In this document: positions 24,219 through 33,804 of the stretch, piece by piece | How the letters are laid out: every line of letters begins with the position of its first letter | Position numbering within the stretch: the stretch's first letter is position 1 | Origin: Sphaerochaetaceae bacterium | GTDB lineage: Bacteria; Spirochaetota; Spirochaetia; Sphaerochaetales; Sphaerochaetaceae | NCBI GenBank assembly: GCA_028702575.1 | Contig: JAQVOO010000005.1 | Location: 1 to 34,147 of the forward strand | Length of the DNA: 34,147 nt | Reading direction: 5' to 3' | Program-made: the position numbers and the translations under genes | Notes under the pieces: model-generated | Databases searched by the model: none | What the model was told of the DNA's origin: nothing | What the model saw: only the letters and a program-made list of their open reading frames with translations

Positions 24219-24917
24219 ATGAGGAGTCGCTCTCTTATCCTTAGCCTAATAGTACTTATATTAATAAGTGTTGGTTGCAGTCGTGATTCTTTTGCTATCC
24301 ATTCCACAACGTTATTACCTTCTATTGTGGCAACGCATAGTGCCGCGGTTAATTCAACCATTGCTGAAGGGCTGGCTATAGCAATTTCAGCTGACCCCCT
24401 CACAAAGGATGAAATCTATCAACTATCGATTACCTCACCTTCTGCGACCTTTGTTTGGGAGCCACTTGTTACCCCTTTTTTAGCAGCTGACAGGTGGTTT
24501 ATTGGTAGTTCAGATTTGTTGCTTCCTCCCGATACTGCTCTTGAAGTTGGCACTTATGAGGTAGAAATATTTTTACCTGATGGTCGCAGATTTGAACAAC
24601 AAGTCACGTATGATCGACCTCGTCGTATATTGCAGGAAGCTAGTTTGTTTGTGGCGTCACTAGCGCCTGTAACTTGGGAGTATGTCAATAATAGGTGGCG
24701 CCTTAATGGGTACGCTGAAGATGAGGACCAACCATGGCGCTATACATTTTACGATGCTAATCACAAGGTGCTCCATACCCAAGAGAGTGCTAGTGCCTAC
24801 CTAGAAAGTCGGGCTTTAGATGATGGAAAAATCAAAGCATTAACTACCTCTATTATTGCTTCCCGTTTTAACGATAATCAAACAATGTTATTTGTTGTAA
24901 GAACATTCTTTACATAG
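24219..24917 (+). CDS. putative lipoprotein, function unknown
   Basis: 232 residues. A signal peptide rich in Leu/Ile ends in LISVGC, a relaxed spirochaete-type lipobox with Cys20 as the acylation site. The rest is polar and looks beta-rich (for example TALEVGTYEVEIFLPDG and YTFYDANHKVLH), with no motif recognised. It follows the acyltransferase by five bases and ends overlapping the convergent mutL by eight bases. The ribosome site (CGGAT) is weak, so translation may depend on coupling. Confidence 0.7.
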   Translation: MRSRSLILSLIVLILISVGCSRDSFAIHSTTLLPSIVATHSAAVNSTIAEGLAIAISADPLTKDEIYQLSITSPSATFVWEPLVTPFLAADRWFIGSSDLLLPPDTALEVGTYEVEIFLPDGRRFEQQVTYDRPRRILQEASLFVASLAPVTWEYVNNRWRLNGYAEDEDQPWRYTFYDANHKVLHTQESASAYLESRALDDGKIKALTTSIIASRFNDNQTMLFVVRTFFT

Positions 24918-26664
24918 TTCGACCAACTGCGCGCCAAAGATGTTCCTTTGTTATCTCAACAACAAAGGTGCGTCCATGTGGGCAAACTGGATGTTCTAAC
25001 TGGAAGACTTGTTTAATTAGTGTTTCAGCTGTAATTCGGTCGATGTTATCGCCATCTTTGATTGCGCCATGACAAGCAATATTAGCATAGAGTTCTTTTT
25101 CTAATTCGCCAAGGTCGCCACTGGAGTGAGAACTGATAAATTTCACTACAGCTTGTTCTATTGGTTTCCAAAGAGCGGGTATTGAACTTAGTTCCCATTC
25201 TAAATCATCAATGCGTTTGAGTTCTAAGCCATAGTCTGCGTACCACGGAGCATGATTAGTGAGAAATTCATCTACAGAACGTTCAACTTCGAATTGGAGC
25301 GGGATGATGAGTCTTTGAATACCTTTATCTTGCCGAATTTGATCGAATAGAATCCGTTCGTGGGCAGCATGTTGGTCGATGAGATACAGAGCATCTCCTC
25401 GTTGTACGACTAAAAATAGGTTGAAAACTTGGCCAAGATAGGCAAAGTCTTCAGTTTTAGGAGTGCTGACAGAAACGGGGGTTGGTTGTTTTTCAAGAAT
25501 TTCTTTAGCCCGTTGAAACCAATCATTATCGTGTGGTTTGGCTTGGTTTTGATTGAAAAAGGATTGAGAACTAGAATTCTTCTTCCCCTGATATCCTTTA
25601 GGACTTTCAGAGGTAGCCAGATTGTGAAGCTCTGGTTGTGCAGTAGGTTGAGTTTCTAAGGAGAGGCGAGGTAGCGATTTGCTTATTTGTTGGCGGACCA
25701 TGACTACGATTTGATGGTGGATCTCCGCCTTATTGCGTAATTTAGCCTCTCGTTTGGCCGGATGTATATTGAAATCGACTAATTCAGGATCTACTGTTAC
25801 AAAGAGGTAGCAGTAGGGGAAGGCTCCCCCGGGTAGCATTTCCCTATACCCATAGGTGACCGCCTGGACTAAGGCATACTCGTCTATGAGTCTTTGATTG
25901 ACATAGATAGCTATATGGGAGCGGTCTGTGCGATAATAAGCTGGAGTTGATGCAACCGCATAGAGGCTAAAGCGACTCGCTTGGTCTCTTAATTCGGTAG
26001 TTTCCGTTGGAATGACCCGCCCATCATGGGCTAAAGTATCGAGGATTCTTTGTTTCGGTGTGGTAGCCGGTAAATCCATACGTAAGGTTTCACCGTCATA
26101 AAAGCGAAATGAAATCTCTGGGAAAGCTCTCGCTTTTTCAACCATGGTATTGCGACACATTGTCGATTCAGTGGCCGGTCGTTTTAAAAATAGGCGACGT
26201 GCTGGAATAGCGGCGAACAGATGTTCGACATCAATCCTAGTTCCCCGATCAGGGCCTCCTGGGATGATTTCAGCATCTTGGCCATTATCTATAATGAGGG
26301 TTGTAGGTTTTGATTCAGCGTGCGTGCTGGCAATGGTAATTTTGGCACTAGCGGCAATACTATACAACGCTTCACCACGAAAACCCATGGTTGAAAGGTT
26401 GAAAAGGTCTTCTAATGTAGCTATTTTACTAGTTGCATGAGAACGGCAGCATAGCGGGAGATCCTCACTTTGAATGCCAATTCCATCATCTATTACCGTA
26501 ATACGTTCTATACCACCAGAGACAACTTGTACGGTAATAGTTTTGGCTTGAGCATCAATGGCATTATCGAGTAATTCTCGTACCACAGATGCAGGTCGTT
26601 CAATGACCTCTCCGGCTGCGATGCGCTGAGCTACCAAAGGGTCTAATTGTTTAATCCTTTCCAT
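24910..26664 (-). CDS. mutL: DNA mismatch repair protein MutL
   Basis: 584 residues. MutL couples MutS mismatch recognition to strand incision. The GHKL ATPase is complete: RELLDNAIDA (29-38), IDDGIGI, ATSKI and GFRGEALYSI. A variable linker follows, then the C-terminal dimer domain. The endonuclease metal motif reads DQHAAHERILFD (430-441), with Asp441 in place of the usual final Glu. The supporting ACHGAIK and CPHGRT (561-566) motifs indicate an incising MutL, as in organisms without MutH. Its start is 13 bases past the T-tract of the giant gene's terminator, and AGG lies two bases before the ATG, so the ribosome site is poor. mutS is not in the window. Confidence 0.95.
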   Translation of the reverse strand: MERIKQLDPLVAQRIAAGEVIERPASVVRELLDNAIDAQAKTITVQVVSGGIERITVIDDGIGIQSEDLPLCCRSHATSKIATLEDLFNLSTMGFRGEALYSIAASAKITIASTHAESKPTTLIIDNGQDAEIIPGGPDRGTRIDVEHLFAAIPARRLFLKRPATESTMCRNTMVEKARAFPEISFRFYDGETLRMDLPATTPKQRILDTLAHDGRVIPTETTELRDQASRFSLYAVASTPAYYRTDRSHIAIYVNQRLIDEYALVQAVTYGYREMLPGGAFPYCYLFVTVDPELVDFNIHPAKREAKLRNKAEIHHQIVVMVRQQISKSLPRLSLETQPTAQPELHNLATSESPKGYQGKKNSSSQSFFNQNQAKPHDNDWFQRAKEILEKQPTPVSVSTPKTEDFAYLGQVFNLFLVVQRGDALYLIDQHAAHERILFDQIRQDKGIQRLIIPLQFEVERSVDEFLTNHAPWYADYGLELKRIDDLEWELSSIPALWKPIEQAVVKFISSHSSGDLGELEKELYANIACHGAIKDGDNIDRITAETLIKQVFQLEHPVCPHGRTFVVEITKEHLWRAVGRTM

Positions 26665-26676
26665 GACCTATCGTAT

Positions 26677-26711
26677 CAAAAAAAGCCATCCCCCACTAGA
26701 GGGATGGCTTT
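26677..26711 (-). terminator. terminator of the giant surface-protein gene
   Basis: On the minus strand, AAAGCCATCCC and GGGATGGCTTT pair through a stem of about 11 bp (26711-26701 with 26692-26682) around an eight-base loop, and are followed by a run of T. It lies about 20 bases after the stop and just before mutL. Confidence 0.93.
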
Positions 26712-26729: not shown

Positions 26730-29700
26730 CTAGAAGAGATTGATATCAACTCCGAAGGTTATAGCTGGAGAACTTGTCGTTGCACTTTGTCTGTTCCAAG
26801 CACCGGCAATAGGAGTCAAATCAGCTAATGTTGAGATGGTTGCATTAAAGGTCAATGGACCTTGGCTTACCCCAACACCGGCGTGAATGACACTATCTGT
26901 TCCGCCAAGGAACGTCTTGATTCGGCTAATCACTGCTGCTGAGCCGGTTAAGAGTGTCTTCGCCGCTGGCATGAATCCACGGCGATTGTACCCCAATGAA
27001 ATATCAAATTGACCCAATTTAGCACTCCCTTTCAGCATAAGAAGATCGCTAGTGGTATTAGCCGCAAATGATGTAGAGAAGGGAAGGATATAGGAAGCTG
27101 CTAAATCAAAGTATTCGTTTCTCCAGGCACTAGAAGCCCCCACAGAGAAGGTTCTGTCAACTGGGATTTCCAGAGATCCAGGCCAAGCTGAATCAAGTGA
27201 TGCTAACACTCCATTTGCTGCAGACCGTTCACGAATGAAGAGGGGGTTGAACATCCCATACGAGAGAGCTCCCTTTTGCATTGCAACGTCCAAACCTATC
27301 ATAAAGTTCTGTGTTTCGACCTTGAGGCCACCCTGGACAAGATAGTTATTTAAACTGTTGAAGAAGGATGAGCCTGAGCTATCATAGAATAGTTGTTCAA
27401 ATCCATAGGTTCTATCATATCCCAGCATAGTGGAGAAGCTACCGTTAGTACTCATCGCAAAATGTTCTTTTTCAATAACAGGGAGAACCATATCGATGGT
27501 TGGGATGAAATCTATACGTTTAATACTATTCGTGAGCGTTAGATTTCCAAGAGCCGACAAGCCAAATTCAGCGCCATAGTTTTTAAATGGAGCAATTCCC
27601 AAGCGGAAGCCACCAAGTTGCCATTCCGCGAGGTTGTTCATAAACAAATCAACATCTACTGCCTTCGACTCGAAAGAGGCCTGTAATCCAACGGCATCCT
27701 GAAGGGTGCTGTCGGTTCGAGTTGTTAGTTCTTTGACCATGGGGCCCATTGAAACAGTTTGGTCGCGACCAATAGCAAGGGTGAAAGCATCCCCTTCTTT
27801 ACCAATGGTTAAATGATCAATAAGTGAGAACAAATCGGTCGTTATATCATAGACTTTACCAATGGTACTACCACCGTAGGAACTACTACCGAATGAGAAG
27901 GGGGCCCCATCGTGGGCATAGAGCTGCATAGCCTGTAGATCTAGCGCAACTTTTGGTCCCAGCCCGAAAGAGAAAGAATCTCCCTTAGCTAGTGTAATAA
28001 CAGGTTGCACGGTAATATGATCGTTATCTAGTCCACCAGCAAATGTTTTGGTATAAGCTGTTCGCAAATCAGCGGAGAAATCAAATTTCTTAGTTTTTAC
28101 CGTATCGCTAAAAACTTTTTCTTTAAGCGCGAGCTCTTTAGATTGTGCAAGAGCTCGTTTAGCGACAAATACTGTAGCCCCAAAATTAAAGCGTGGGGTG
28201 AACACGGTAGGTGCACCAGCTTGTGCTACTACACTTGCATCACCAAAGATACTGAACAAACCTTGTTGATAACGTAAAGCGACGTAAGGTTGGGCATTTC
28301 CTCCAGACCTTAGAAGAGCTTTGGTATTATTTACAAAACCTGAGAATCCTCCGGAGAAATCGAAGAGATTAGTAATAGCAGTTACAAAACCCACTCTGCG
28401 CAATCCCAATGCAGCTTCAAAATTGGAACCAGTATAGGTCGCCTCAATGGCGAACATATCTCCAGAGACTGCACTGTTGGTATCTAGGGGGATAATGCGA
28501 GAGAAGTTTTGTTCAATTGGAAGGTACCATGACCCTGAAAAACTAAATGTATCGCCAGTGTATCGCGCTTCTGCACCAAAGGTAAAATAGATCCCGGCGT
28601 TAGCATCAAGCATCCGTTTCCCTGAGTAGTGACTCTGGTTCAATGATCCTAAAGATAAAATTCCGTCAGCACTGTTTTGCACTGCTCCAACTAAACGATA
28701 ATTCCAGTTAAGGGTACGTAAATCGAGACCGCCGGCAGCTAAGAAATTAGGAAGTTTATTACTTAAGGAGCTACCTGAGCTGTTATAGATGGTGTTTAAA
28801 GAGAACGAATCAAGGCTGACCATAGTAGCCATATTTACAAAGGCGTCAATGCGCAATCTGCGCTCATTTTTAATTGTCCATAATAAATCAAGAGCGGGGT
28901 AGGCATTAAAGTTCTTACTTGAATTAGCACTAAGCAACGAAGATGCCCCTAACGAAATAGCAGGAGAGAAGGCGTAGGTCACCCGCATTCCACCTATTTG
29001 TTTATCCCCAGCCAGCCAATTACTAAAGTACAAGTCATCAGCAAAGAGTTCTAAACCAAACTTCCCGATGGTAGCAGAGCTATAAAGTCCAAGATGTTCT
29101 TCATAAGGACCGCTAGCAACACCAAGGTTGTTCACTAAAATTCGGTTTCCAAATGCAATGGGGGTGGTATCATCAGCTAATAGATAGAAGGCATCTCCAG
29201 CTTGTCCATACCGGATATAATCTAAAAAGCTCATGGCCGAACTTACAGTAGTAGCAATACCTGAGCCACTTCGTAAATTAAAGACATCATAGGTTGATGG
29301 AGAGAGAAGACTTCCATCGGTCAAGAAGAAGGCCTGTAAACCCATTGCAAAGGCGTTGTGATTAAAGAATGGATTTATAGAAAGACCAAGTTTAGGAGTT
29401 TGACCACTGGCAAAACTATCACGGGATACGGTCAGAGTTGCCGAGAGGCCCCAATCAAAACTATCCGCAGGAGCTTCAGACACACTCGCTGTGATGCCTA
29501 GAGGTTGTTTAATAGCTAAGGGACTTTCTGTGATTGTTTGGGCTGGGACATCTTCAGCTACAAGAATTTCTTCAGGGGTAGGTTCGCCTTCGACCACTAC
29601 AGGCGTTTCTACAATATCTGCTGGTTCTGTAACTTCTAAAGCGGGTTCCTTTGCGATATCTGCTGGCTCTGTGACTTCTAAAGCGGGTTCCTTTGCGACG

Positions 29701-31673
29701 AGTGTCTCAGTTACAACTGGAACAATTTGCTGGGCAGCATAGCGTGCCTTTTGTTTTTCTATAAAGGTTACAACGTCGGAGTCGAGAGGTACGTGGGTAA
29801 TTCCAAAAGATTTTGCCAGAGCACTCTTATTGGGGTTATTTATATCTTCTACACTGATTCTGGCAGTGTCTAAAGTAACGGCTTCACCATCTACCACATG
29901 AATAGCTACTACTCCAACACTTTGTAGTCTTGCATTAGCATTTACAATTAAAGTAGATCCCACGAGTTTACCTCTAGCAGGAGTTTGAGTTGCTTCACCA
30001 TCAATAATAAGATCAATCCCGGAAATTGCTTGAGCAATGTCAGTACTAGTTATACCAGCTGGAGCACCTGAGGTATTACCTAGTAAAATAACAAAATCAG
30101 ATTGAGAAGCAACTTCGTCAACTAAATTTTGTGCTTGTGCAATAATTGTCTCATTAAGATAACTAATGCCACTGACGTCTTTGGGGGGAACACTTATGCC
30201 AATAACTCCGATGGTATATCCCTCAAGATCAAAAATTCCGTACGGGTCAAATAAGAACTCACCTTGGGAATCGAGGATGTTTGCAGCTAATATTTTTACT
30301 TGGGAAAATTGGGTCGCCATGTTGGCAGCTTCTTGTAAGCGCTCGATGCCATAGGCATAATCAGCTGGTCCGGGAGCAATAGCATTATAGCCAAGCATAT
30401 CGAGTAATACTGCGACAGTTTCTCCCTTAAAAGCTTCTGCAAGGGGTGTCCCACTAGTAGTATTACCAGCATCAAGTAATAAATTACGATCAGAAACACT
30501 TCGTCCCCAATCAAGGAGTGTTGCTAAACGAGCATAACCAATCCCTTCATCTTCAATTTGTCCCAACACGTCATTTGTGTGGACAACATAAACATCAAAA
30601 ACTTCTTGTTCAGCTACTAGCTCTGCAGGAGCAACTACTTCAGGAGTCTCTTCAACTACTACAGGAGCAACTACTTCAGGAGTCTCTTCAACTACTACAG
30701 GAGCAATTACTTCAGGAGTCTCTTCAACTACTACAGGAGCAACTACTTCAGGAGTCTCTTCTACTACTACAGGAGCAATTACTTCAGGAGTCTCTTCTAC
30801 TACTACAGGAGCAATTACTTCAGGAGTCTCTTCTACTACTACAGGAGCTGCTACTTTAGGAGTCTCTTTAACTACAGGAGCTACTACTTTAGGAGTCTCT
30901 TTTACCACAGCCGGAGTGGGTTTTTGTGGAGTGACAACCTTTTCAGTCTCTACTTTTTGTGCTTTGAATAGAGGTTCTGGATTTTGGAAGGTGATTCCGT
31001 CTTGCACTTTTACACTGGGTAATATTCTAGTTGTGGTCTTCTTAGGATTAATCGAGAGTGTTTCATAGGTCTCTCTTGAAAGTTCTTTTGTGTTTACAAA
31101 TGGGTCCGCGAGGTTAAGATAGGTAAATTCAGGTAGGTCGGTAATTTGGCGTGTAATTGCATTCATGACACGAATTTTACCACCTAGTGAGAACACAATT
31201 TCAGCATAATCGGAGGAGATGAACATCTCTCCATGACCTTGGAGTGTATAAATCCCTACTGGTGTTGAAACCTCTAATTTGCCTAAAAATGGGGTATCCA
31301 TTAAAAAAGAGGCCGAACCGGCAATCAGATAATAGGAAGGTTTGTTCACAGTGGTTGAGCCAATCGTGAGAATAGATTCTCGTTGCAATACAATCGTAGT
31401 ATTAGGTCCTTTGATAGTAACAGGCTCTTGCCCTGAGAGAACAATCCACCCCTCTTTAAGAGCAGTCACAGTCGATGTTGGAGCAACGTATACCCCTTTT
31501 GCATCAAACTGGAAGTAATCTGAGTTTATGTCGTTAGCAACATAAAGAAATTGAGGAGTCGAAGCCTCAGTCGTAGGTAAAATTGCAGCCGATACTGTAA
31601 ACAGCATCACCAACATTGTCATTGCTACTAAAAATATCACTTTTTTCACGTGCGTTAACCTCTTCATTTTCAT
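26730..31673 (-). CDS. giant chimeric outer-membrane protein (FecR-like, Pro/Glu repeats, 5'-nucleotidase-like, two beta domains)
   Basis: 1647 residues. In order: signal peptide (about 1-37); FecR-like beta domain (about 60-190, with VSTPVGIYTLQGHGEMFI); Pro/Glu tandem repeat (257-349) based on APVVVEETPEV; a 5'-nucleotidase/metallophosphatase-like domain (about 358-650); a second linker with a duplicated KEPALEVTEPADI (661-687); and a beta-rich C-terminal region (740-1647) ending in Phe. That region is two diverged copies: GDAF (826/1294), YNSSGSS and YDSSGSS (963/1430), SWYLP and SYILP, LRRVGF and YNRRGF. The nucleotidase motifs are eroded (see findings), so binding rather than catalysis is likely. 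A GTG at 31649 preceded by AAGAGG is an alternative start giving MKKVIFLVAM. Probably exported and inserted in the outer membrane; function unknown. Confidence 0.9.
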   Translation of the reverse strand: MKMKRLTHVKKVIFLVAMTMLVMLFTVSAAILPTTEASTPQFLYVANDINSDYFQFDAKGVYVAPTSTVTALKEGWIVLSGQEPVTIKGPNTTIVLQRESILTIGSTTVNKPSYYLIAGSASFLMDTPFLGKLEVSTPVGIYTLQGHGEMFISSDYAEIVFSLGGKIRVMNAITRQITDLPEFTYLNLADPFVNTKELSRETYETLSINPKKTTTRILPSVKVQDGITFQNPEPLFKAQKVETEKVVTPQKPTPAVVKETPKVVAPVVKETPKVAAPVVVEETPEVIAPVVVEETPEVIAPVVVEETPEVVAPVVVEETPEVIAPVVVEETPEVVAPVVVEETPEVVAPAELVAEQEVFDVYVVHTNDVLGQIEDEGIGYARLATLLDWGRSVSDRNLLLDAGNTTSGTPLAEAFKGETVAVLLDMLGYNAIAPGPADYAYGIERLQEAANMATQFSQVKILAANILDSQGEFLFDPYGIFDLEGYTIGVIGISVPPKDVSGISYLNETIIAQAQNLVDEVASQSDFVILLGNTSGAPAGITSTDIAQAISGIDLIIDGEATQTPARGKLVGSTLIVNANARLQSVGVVAIHVVDGEAVTLDTARISVEDINNPNKSALAKSFGITHVPLDSDVVTFIEKQKARYAAQQIVPVVTETLVAKEPALEVTEPADIAKEPALEVTEPADIVETPVVVEGEPTPEEILVAEDVPAQTITESPLAIKQPLGITASVSEAPADSFDWGLSATLTVSRDSFASGQTPKLGLSINPFFNHNAFAMGLQAFFLTDGSLLSPSTYDVFNLRSGSGIATTVSSAMSFLDYIRYGQAGDAFYLLADDTTPIAFGNRILVNNLGVASGPYEEHLGLYSSATIGKFGLELFADDLYFSNWLAGDKQIGGMRVTYAFSPAISLGASSLLSANSSKNFNAYPALDLLWTIKNERRLRIDAFVNMATMVSLDSFSLNTIYNSSGSSLSNKLPNFLAAGGLDLRTLNWNYRLVGAVQNSADGILSLGSLNQSHYSGKRMLDANAGIYFTFGAEARYTGDTFSFSGSWYLPIEQNFSRIIPLDTNSAVSGDMFAIEATYTGSNFEAALGLRRVGFVTAITNLFDFSGGFSGFVNNTKALLRSGGNAQPYVALRYQQGLFSIFGDASVVAQAGAPTVFTPRFNFGATVFVAKRALAQSKELALKEKVFSDTVKTKKFDFSADLRTAYTKTFAGGLDNDHITVQPVITLAKGDSFSFGLGPKVALDLQAMQLYAHDGAPFSFGSSSYGGSTIGKVYDITTDLFSLIDHLTIGKEGDAFTLAIGRDQTVSMGPMVKELTTRTDSTLQDAVGLQASFESKAVDVDLFMNNLAEWQLGGFRLGIAPFKNYGAEFGLSALGNLTLTNSIKRIDFIPTIDMVLPVIEKEHFAMSTNGSFSTMLGYDRTYGFEQLFYDSSGSSFFNSLNNYLVQGGLKVETQNFMIGLDVAMQKGALSYGMFNPLFIRERSAANGVLASLDSAWPGSLEIPVDRTFSVGASSAWRNEYFDLAASYILPFSTSFAANTTSDLLMLKGSAKLGQFDISLGYNRRGFMPAAKTLLTGSAAVISRIKTFLGGTDSVIHAGVGVSQGPLTFNATISTLADLTPIAGAWNRQSATTSSPAITFGVDINLF
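29617..29700. repeat. two 42-bp direct repeats in the second linker
   Basis: Two adjacent 42-base units (29617-29658 and 29659-29700) differ at only a few positions. They encode the duplicated ALEVTEPADI-type linker of the giant protein on the minus strand, and keep the frame. Confidence 0.9.
30625..30909. repeat. 36-bp tandem repeat array (six full, two decayed units)
   Basis: Six 36-base units start at 30625, 30661, 30697, 30733, 30769 and 30805. Each encodes twelve residues (VVVEETPE, V, V or I, AP) on the minus strand. Units vary at a C/T that switches Val and Ile, and at a second C/A-to-T position. Two shorter, more diverged units follow at 30841 and 30874. All keep the reading frame, as expected of a copy-number-variable linker. 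Confidence 0.95.
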
Positions 31674-31682
31674 AACTATACA

Positions 31683-32516
31683 TTACTCTAAATCATGATG
31701 GACCGCAACTGTGTTTGCGAGATCTGGTAGGGTAGAAACAGGATTTTTTCGCGGTATTTCGTACGAAAATTGATGAGAATGATAGATATGTTCACGAACA
31801 TCTCGATCAATGTGAGCTAAATCGCGTACGATAGGCTTTAATCGAGCCCGTATATTAGTCTTATCATAGGGGCATTTAGGTTTCACTGCCGGTAAATTAT
31901 AGGTATCGGCTAGTTTTTGAATTGTTGTTTCATGTACTTCTATCATGGGTCGAATAACATGAATCTTCCCTTTGAAAAATTCTTGGACTGGAAGCATGGT
32001 CTCAAACTTTGCCCGACTCGTTAGATTTAAAAGGGTCGTTTCGACTAAATCATCCAAATGATGCCCCATGGCAATCAGTTTATATCCATGTTCTGCAGCA
32101 TATGTAAAGAGGATTCTACGCCTGTTTCGAGAACAAAGATAACAATTAAATTCACCTTTAAAGCTATCTGGGTATTGTTTTTCATCTAAAATAAGCAATG
32201 GGATTTGCAGAGCCCCAAAAAATTCCTCAATGCAAAGCCGATCTTCAATTTCTATGGGATGTTCAATCCAATTAATCATGACTGCTTGCAATGAATAAGA
32301 GATTGGTAGCCACTGTAAGCGGATCGAGAGGGCAAGAGCGAGAGCCAGCGAGTCTTTGCCTCCCGAGACACTGAGCAAGACAGCATCATTATCTCGAATC
32401 ATCGCATGCCGGTTAATACCTTTGCCCGTGAGCTTAATGAACCGCCTAACCCAAGGAGGAATAGGGGCTGAGAGTAACTCGCGCCATTTTTGTGGAGGAT
32501 GTTGTAGGCTATGCAT
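31683..32516 (-). CDS. ttcA: TtcA-like tRNA 2-thiocytidine synthase
   Basis: 277 residues. PP-loop ATPase SGGKDS (51-56) with Cys125 and Cys128 in CYLCSRNRR and a third Cys215 in PKCPYD, the three-cysteine pattern that holds the Fe-S cluster of TtcA. The GHHLDDLVET segment (151-160) is the family's second ATP motif. TtcA thiolates cytidine 32 in the tRNA anticodon loop. The related TilS lacks these cysteines, so TtcA is preferred. The gene overlaps the upstream HD gene by eight bases and is nine bases from the giant protein gene, indicating one transcript. Confidence 0.88.
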   Translation of the reverse strand: MHSLQHPPQKWRELLSAPIPPWVRRFIKLTGKGINRHAMIRDNDAVLLSVSGGKDSLALALALSIRLQWLPISYSLQAVMINWIEHPIEIEDRLCIEEFFGALQIPLLILDEKQYPDSFKGEFNCYLCSRNRRRILFTYAAEHGYKLIAMGHHLDDLVETTLLNLTSRAKFETMLPVQEFFKGKIHVIRPMIEVHETTIQKLADTYNLPAVKPKCPYDKTNIRARLKPIVRDLAHIDRDVREHIYHSHQFSYEIPRKNPVSTLPDLANTVAVHHDLE

Positions 32517-33804
32517 GCTCGTTTAATCCTTCTTTGAGCACCTTTTCTGCAATTGAAGAAGAGATGTAATCAGGTAGAAATAACCGTAATTTCCTTAAAC
32601 TAGTAGTAAAAGCTCGAACTAAAGGTGGAGTAAATAATTCATCTACTGATGCGAAATCTTTCAACGTGTTATGTTCAAGTAGGATAGGGATATCAGATTC
32701 AAAAGAGATATCCTCTGGAATATCGATTATCACTTCACATGAGTTCAATTTAGGATATGAGCGAACTAGTTCTTCGTACACAGACTGTTCCACCAGAGCA
32801 CGACTTTCTTGATTTGTAAAAAGATTACGGCAGTGCTCAGTTTGGGTTAAGGAGAGGGTAGCTTTTGTTTGTAGCAAATCGTTATTGCGTACTTTTTTTA
32901 CAAGCTCTACCACCTCGAGATCTTGCATATGTGAAAAAAGTGTCCAAAAAGATTCATCATCTAAATTGAATAGATCTGTTTCATGACAGATTTCTTTTTG
33001 AAGCGCAAGTCGGACTGCTTTTTTAATCATAGCAGTGGCACTGCGGGTCACCCGATGCCAATATACATTACGATACATCGAGTATTTTGCAAAAAGAAGA
33101 TGTTCTACCGCGCCAATAGCTTCTAAAGGGATACAAAGGGTTTGTCCTTGATGCACAGATAAGTGACGAATTATGTAGGAAGCATCTTGCATGCCATAAG
33201 GGATGCCACAGAACAAAGCATCCCGACTAAGATAATCGAGTTTGTCAGGGTCCATGGTTCCCGATAATATAGTGCGATAAAAAAAGATTTCAGCATCGTC
33301 ACATGGTAAAGCTGGATCAATAATCTGGCAAACAGCCTCAACAGAAGTTCCTAATTGGTCGGTTATGATATGACCTAAACTCTTATCTTCAGCTATAATT
33401 TCAGCCCCTAACACCTCATGTTCTCGACTTATATTATCTTTGAGAGCATGGGCATAAGGGAAATGACCCACATCGTGTAACATAGCTGCTGCTAAGAGTG
33501 CCTGAATCCCTTCCTGGCTCAGAAGTGGATGAGAGTGCTCCCCAGTAAGGAGTGCTAGCACAATTAAACGAGTTGCATGGAACACTCCTAGGCTATGGTC
33601 CAAACGGGTATGGACAGCTCCTGGATATAACAAATGAACTGGACCCAATTGTTTAATTCGCCCAAGTTTCTGAAGAGATTCACTAGTAAATAATCGTTTA
33701 AATCCTTTAGATAGCGGAATATCTCTCCATAGCGGATCTCTTACTGTTTGTGTAAAATCGCCTATGAGACGGGCAATTTGATTCTTCACAAAATTGTTTT
33801 TCAT
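32509..33804 (-). CDS. HD-domain phosphohydrolase (COG1078/dGTPase-like)
   Basis: 431 residues. Metal-binding HD motifs are present: TRLDHSLG (His70), AAMLHDVGHFPYAH (His110, Asp111), an EHE at 128-130 and GTMDPDKLDYLSRD (181-194). This arrangement belongs to the SAMHD1/dGTPase-like HD superfamily. Members hydrolyse dNTPs or other nucleotides; the precise substrate is unknown. The C-terminal part (about 290-431) has few recognised motifs. It is the first gene of the HD-ttcA-giant protein operon. The ribosome site at the ATG is poor (GGGGCA directly before it). Confidence 0.85.
   Translation of the reverse strand: MKNNFVKNQIARLIGDFTQTVRDPLWRDIPLSKGFKRLFTSESLQKLGRIKQLGPVHLLYPGAVHTRLDHSLGVFHATRLIVLALLTGEHSHPLLSQEGIQALLAAAMLHDVGHFPYAHALKDNISREHEVLGAEIIAEDKSLGHIITDQLGTSVEAVCQIIDPALPCDDAEIFFYRTILSGTMDPDKLDYLSRDALFCGIPYGMQDASYIIRHLSVHQGQTLCIPLEAIGAVEHLLFAKYSMYRNVYWHRVTRSATAMIKKAVRLALQKEICHETDLFNLDDESFWTLFSHMQDLEVVELVKKVRNNDLLQTKATLSLTQTEHCRNLFTNQESRALVEQSVYEELVRSYPKLNSCEVIIDIPEDISFESDIPILLEHNTLKDFASVDELFTPPLVRAFTTSLRKLRLFLPDYISSSIAEKVLKEGLNEHA

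Follow-up and report, generated by a model that had tools for sequence, protein, structure and literature searches.

How does a single polypeptide come to join a FecR-like domain, a nucleotidase-like domain, and two outer membrane-type beta domains, and what might such a protein do? The question is posed by gene X (26730-31673, minus strand), an ORF with an ATG start and no interruption in the window, i.e., the whole 34,147-nucleotide stretch of DNA analyzed here. In the 2.29-Mb draft genome of an uncultured member of Sphaerochaetaceae, a relative of Sphaerochaeta, this stretch is contig C128. We favor, with a probability of roughly 0.6, the reading that X is a tandem-barrel outer membrane protein in which porin-like channels are preceded by a periplasmic docking arm made of a FecR-like domain and a dead nucleotidase domain.

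A composite gene outside the named protein families

Full-length or near-full-length orthologues of X were present in other genomes, including at the same locus, so the 1,647-residue product is neither a chance ORF nor an assembly fusion. From the N terminus, its order was signal peptide, FecR-like domain, Pro/Glu linker, 5'-nucleotidase-like domain, second linker, and two homologous barrels. The first-pass annotation, made from the sequence alone, had proposed this ORF and domain order and could assign the whole to no named family; the order is confirmed by the ORF, profile searches, orthologues, and models, and no Pfam or NCBIfam family searched covers the whole protein. Each component that it named held up in the analyses below, except that the nucleotidase domain is catalytically dead and comes without the C-terminal 5'-nucleotidase domain. 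X itself had no Pfam match anywhere along its 1,647 residues, and our literature searches found no description of X or of its barrel family.

Both termini read as those of an exported barrel protein. The predicted Sec-type signal peptide (residues 1 to ~30; 31584-31673, minus strand, as are all features of X below) has a basic start, a hydrophobic core, and an AxA-like end, and orthologues start similarly. The last strand, ITFGVDINLF (26733-26762), is a predicted BAM-type beta-signal; the C-terminal residue is Phe in X and F or Y in most near orthologues. Signal peptide, modeled barrel fold, and C-terminal aromatic beta-signal together would make X an outer membrane barrel protein, although the TM-scores behind the fold assignment are low.

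Two homologous barrels in one chain

Barrels B1 (residues 739-1171; 28161-29459) and B2 (residues 1198-1645; 26739-28082) were 25% identical (blastp, E = 1e-16) and are joined by a helical, low-confidence connector (residues 1172-1197; 28083-28160). AlphaFold2 modeled B1 alone, from 41 rows, as a barrel of ~18 to 20 strands (pLDDT 91.4, pTM 0.87). The tandem model (residues 732-1647; pLDDT 84.2) contained two beta-rich halves with a low-confidence helical join and, at a pTM of 0.57, does not fix the relative placement of the barrels. In Foldseek searches with B1, MOMP and AlgE were nearest by E-value, with OprD-type channels lower, and the near-top matches were all outer membrane barrels (MOMP, AlgE, chitoporin, OprD types, and ushers); with TM-scores of ~0.2 to 0.44 and large rmsd, these matches support the barrel fold class but no specific relative, and leave closure and the exact strand number unproven. 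Internal homology, the tandem model, and the existence of single-barrel relatives all point to two separate barrels in one chain.

The barrel family is described by none of the Pfam or NCBIfam models searched. Queries with 27 homologous rows returned no Pfam family except for two isolated, unrelated matches near E 0.01, and the barrel profile had chance-level matches only among PDB sequences. In the strand list of the B1 model, odd strands lead into long loops and even strands into short turns; together with an even strand count, this pattern would put both barrel ends, and hence the N-terminal arm, on the periplasmic side.

A conserved locus across spirochete families

Upstream of X lie a TtcA-like PP-loop gene (31683-32516, minus strand; Pfam and NCBIfam), which ends 9 bases before X, and an HD/HD_assoc_2 phosphohydrolase gene (32509-33804, minus strand; Pfam), both in conserved positions; downstream lies mutL (24910-26664, minus strand; Pfam), which adjoins X in all families examined. 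The HD and tRNA thiolase neighborhood had been taken to give no clear hint of role, yet it proved more informative once relatives were compared. Domain HMMs run over relatives recovered the order HD - TtcA-like - [Y] - X - mutL in Sphaerochaetaceae, where Y is a single-barrel gene of ~450 amino acids, and the order Y - X - mutL was conserved in four other families (L051, L053, L054, and L055; L and G labels denote our loci and genomes), with X - mutL also in L052. Two features of the region stand apart from these genes: a fast-evolving 232-amino-acid gene (24219-24917) between the acyltransferase gene and mutL, conserved in place with 23 to 40% identity and no Pfam family, and a terminator-like hairpin with a T-rich tail (26690-26704, minus strand) between X and mutL, of a kind whose matches were not above chance regionally.

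A scan of contigs with the whole protein had no match, and a query with the neighboring acyltransferase yielded 46 named loci. Relatives at the locus included the uncultured Sphaerochaetaceae MAGs HGW-Spirochaetae-4, HGW-Spirochaetae-2, and SM3-B16.1 and Sphaerochaeta sp. UBA6084, and, more distantly, Sphaerochaeta halotolerans and Bullifex porci. The taxonomic survey found the barrel class-wide in Spirochaetia and the nucleotidase-bearing form in few genera: the barrel model matched 154 of 297 sampled Spirochaetia genomes (79 of 113 genera), and the tandem model matched 76 of the 139 genomes of the family. The usual X at this locus is a protein of ~660 to 920 amino acids with a FecR domain, a Pro-rich linker, and one barrel. 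Two-barrel forms of X lacking the nucleotidase domain occurred at L045, L046, and L091. At ten loci (L082, L092, L097, L098, L100, L103, L104, L106, L111, and L112), FecR and a two-barrel protein were encoded by separate, adjoining genes, an adjacency which argues that both parts work together; at L105 and L108 (Bullifex porci), a FecR gene was detected and no barrel was found adjoining it.

This distribution bears on whether X could be a surface protein or adhesin, its N-terminal arm passed outside through the barrel, as in autotransporters, to bind surfaces or cells. In its layout, X does follow a classical autotransporter, with a signal peptide, passenger-like domains on the N-terminal side, and a barrel at the C terminus. 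Yet no autotransporter or adhesin family in Pfam was matched by X or its barrel homologues, the modeled barrel exceeds the 12 strands of type V autotransporters (~18 to 20) and is duplicated, and a passenger could not tolerate the separation of FecR and barrel into different genes that is seen in many relatives. We therefore regard an adhesin as very unlikely. Of the two roles first suggested for X, the periplasm-spanning design fits the loop pattern, which would place the arm in the periplasm, whereas the surface or adhesion role found no positive support.

Origin of the tandem barrels

Gene Y (L044:7298-8698, L045:4833-6257, and L051:6482-7819, among others) constitutes a second single-barrel family beside X across Spirochaetia. 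None of the copies tested had a Pfam match, and Y was absent from the window clade wherever the interval was available. We placed 56 barrel domains in a tree rooted by midpoint only. Y formed one clade (support 100/99), while the B1 set (100/99) and B2 set (99/99) of the window clade both fell among X barrels. This topology rejects the idea that Y was fused to X to give B2 and favors an origin of the second barrel by duplication inside X. One member of the B1 set is the one-barrel X of G002, in which B2 has apparently been lost. A separate duplication may underlie the two-barrel X of L046 (from another family) and L091.

The FecR-like domain and its flexible linkers

Residues 55-188 (31110-31511), delimited with our own HMM, form the FecR-like domain. 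Its identity came through homologues, 16 of 40 of which matched PF04773 (best E 1.1e-13); X itself did not, and a PF04773 search of the host genome had no match either, the copy in the window having diverged too far. The FecR profile had chance-level matches only among PDB sequences. Linker 1 (residues 189-358; 30600-31109) is rich in Pro, Glu, and Val and contains six copies of a 12-amino-acid repeat, VVVEETPEV[IV]AP (residues 278-349; 30627-30842); linker 2 (residues 637-738; 29460-29765) is again Pro/Glu rich, such that sequence of this composition flanks the nucleotidase domain on both sides. Among relatives, linker length and sequence vary freely. An apparent repeated alpha/beta unit of ~100 amino acids follows the FecR domain in other lineages (L103:9757-11505, L082:15823-16881, and L094:13456-17244), in the slot held by the nucleotidase domain in X.

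In iron systems, FecR acts together with an outer membrane barrel. Given that likeness, and the PF04773 membership of the homologous segment, X might be a surface signaling protein that detects a ligand at its barrel through the FecR-like domain and relays the signal inward. The inner membrane anti-sigma architecture of iron-signaling FecR is nevertheless absent: X has no cytoplasmic anti-sigma part, its N terminus is a signal peptide, and the domain is fused to a barrel at the other end of the chain; that barrel matched no TonB-dependent receptor family in Pfam. Signaling of this type appears even less probable than adhesion.

A dead nucleotidase domain kept under selection

The remaining domain (residues 359-636; 29766-30599) is a degenerate, UshA-like metallophosphatase of the 5'-nucleotidase group, as judged from profile matches, motifs, and a tree. 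NCBIfam models matched within residues 351-604 (UshA-like, E = 2e-21; SoxB, E = 5.6e-21), and phmmer against the PDB retrieved CD73, UshA, and SoxB structures (best E 4.5e-10). The motifs DxH, GD, GNH[DE], GH, and GHSH are replaced in X by NDVL, GN, GPAD, GN, and GEAT; no X copy compared retained the full metal-binding and catalytic set, and X lacks the C-terminal 5'-nucleotidase domain (no Pfam match to 5_nucleotid_C, PF02872). The clear homology to UshA, CD73, and SoxB might suggest an active outer membrane 5'-nucleotidase that carries an uptake channel in its own chain; given this loss, we reject that reading as scarcely credible.

The domain was found in X of genera g1, g3, g5, g15, g17, and g21 and, very diverged, in g18 (G017 and G033); a further g18 match, in G122, was seen by coordinates only. 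In g18, the diverged domain sits in a single-barrel X (L065:4083-7343 and L067:2138-5260), with Y retained in L065, and is possibly an independent insertion.

Between two close MAGs, dN/dS was 0.10 for the nucleotidase domain, 0.06 to 0.09 for the barrels, and 0.12 for the linker. With a value like that of the barrels, the dead domain is maintained by purifying selection. Former active-site stretches were slightly more conserved than the remainder (0.63 versus 0.49, P = 0.05), a small difference that allows for retained ligand binding but supports it only weakly.

These data also bear on another reading, in which the arm serves mainly to tether the outer membrane mechanically to some periplasmic structure, peptidoglycan or another, with the dead domain as a mere spacer. 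Such a tether could account for a conserved core of FecR and Pro-rich linker without the nucleotidase domain, for linkers free to vary in length and sequence, for different sequence in the linker slot of other lineages, and for the FecR proteins of L105 and L108. However, the Pfam scan found no known peptidoglycan-binding domain, and a dN/dS of 0.10 implies tighter constraint than one would expect of a pure spacer, though the linker itself is at 0.12. We consider a tether unlikely.

The nearest relatives of the dead domain outside X were, at ~50% identity, pseudo-repeats that open a lipoprotein UshA of the same genome (G000:C110; L031:4278-8251). In this lipoprotein, which has one N stretch inside, the degenerate repeats precede an intact module matching Metallophos and 5_nucleotid_C. 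X copies and UshA pseudo-repeats have losses in common: GD has become GN, GNHD has become GPAD-like, and GHSH is gone. In the tree, the active lipoprotein modules grouped with X copies and pseudo-repeats, apart from other nucleotidases, with support of 99/100. The nucleotidase copy of G004 grouped weakly with the pseudo-repeats, and window-clade copies were not one clade, so the tree does not establish a single capture. Several Sphaerochaeta relatives carry up to three near-identical nucleotidase repeats in lipoprotein UshA (G148).

A probable porin-like protein with a proposed docking arm

The architecture, conservation, motif loss, purifying selection, and barrel fold class of X are computed results; from them we infer its membrane insertion, the periplasmic location of its arm, channel activity, and docking. 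X would leave the cytoplasm through Sec and enter the outer membrane through BAM, such that two porin-like barrels of ~18 to 20 strands each sit in that membrane, behind a periplasmic arm of FecR-like beta domain, Pro/Glu spacer, dead nucleotidase, and second spacer. The core of FecR, Pro-rich linker, and barrel would be an old spirochete family; in the window clade, the barrel would have been duplicated within the gene and the neighboring Y lost, and the linker would have gained a degenerate UshA domain akin to the pseudo-repeats in the lipoprotein UshA of the same genome. The barrels are most likely channels, and the dead domain most likely serves in binding or docking, keeping a ligand or a partner in the periplasm close to the channel; the docking role is suggested only by the shared ancestry of the domain. 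A more specific version, in which the pseudo-nucleotidase of X pairs with the like domain of lipoprotein UshA and thereby holds an active nucleotidase at the two-barrel channel, is distinctly unlikely; if true, it would amount to an outer membrane nucleotide-scavenging complex built by copied dead-enzyme domains. The safest statement is that X is a porin-like tandem-barrel outer membrane protein with a periplasmic arm.

Spirochete outer membrane proteins are poorly catalogued, and X belongs to a class-wide spirochete barrel family that is missing from Pfam and NCBIfam and has a conserved place beside mutL. In X, moreover, an enzyme domain has lost its activity, stayed under selection, and ended up in a membrane protein; the growth of a multi-barrel protein can be followed through its living stages (single barrel, duplicated barrel, inserted domain, and split genes).

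Comparison with known systems

UshA and CD73 have an N-terminal metallophosphatase domain homologous to that of X, whereas the X copy lacks the catalytic motifs and the C-terminal domain and is fused to an outer membrane protein. With FecR, the X segment shares the Pfam family PF04773 through its homologues; unlike FecR of iron signaling, it has no cytoplasmic or transmembrane anti-sigma part and is joined to a barrel. AlgE, MOMP, and OprD-type channels were among the top Foldseek matches of B1, at ~10% identity and TM-scores of ~0.3 to 0.44, a likeness for which we claim no sequence homology. The YjbH family model had no match in Pfam scans of X and its barrel homologues; the YjbH/GfcD multi-barrel proteins do likewise carry two barrels per chain, and GfcD is predicted to have a globular domain with a 12- and a 13-stranded barrel around it (PMC8592465, citing Solan et al. 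2021, pmid 34330833). By comparison, the modeled barrels of X would be larger, are homologous to each other, and stand head-to-tail, preceded by an arm of FecR and pseudo-nucleotidase domains.
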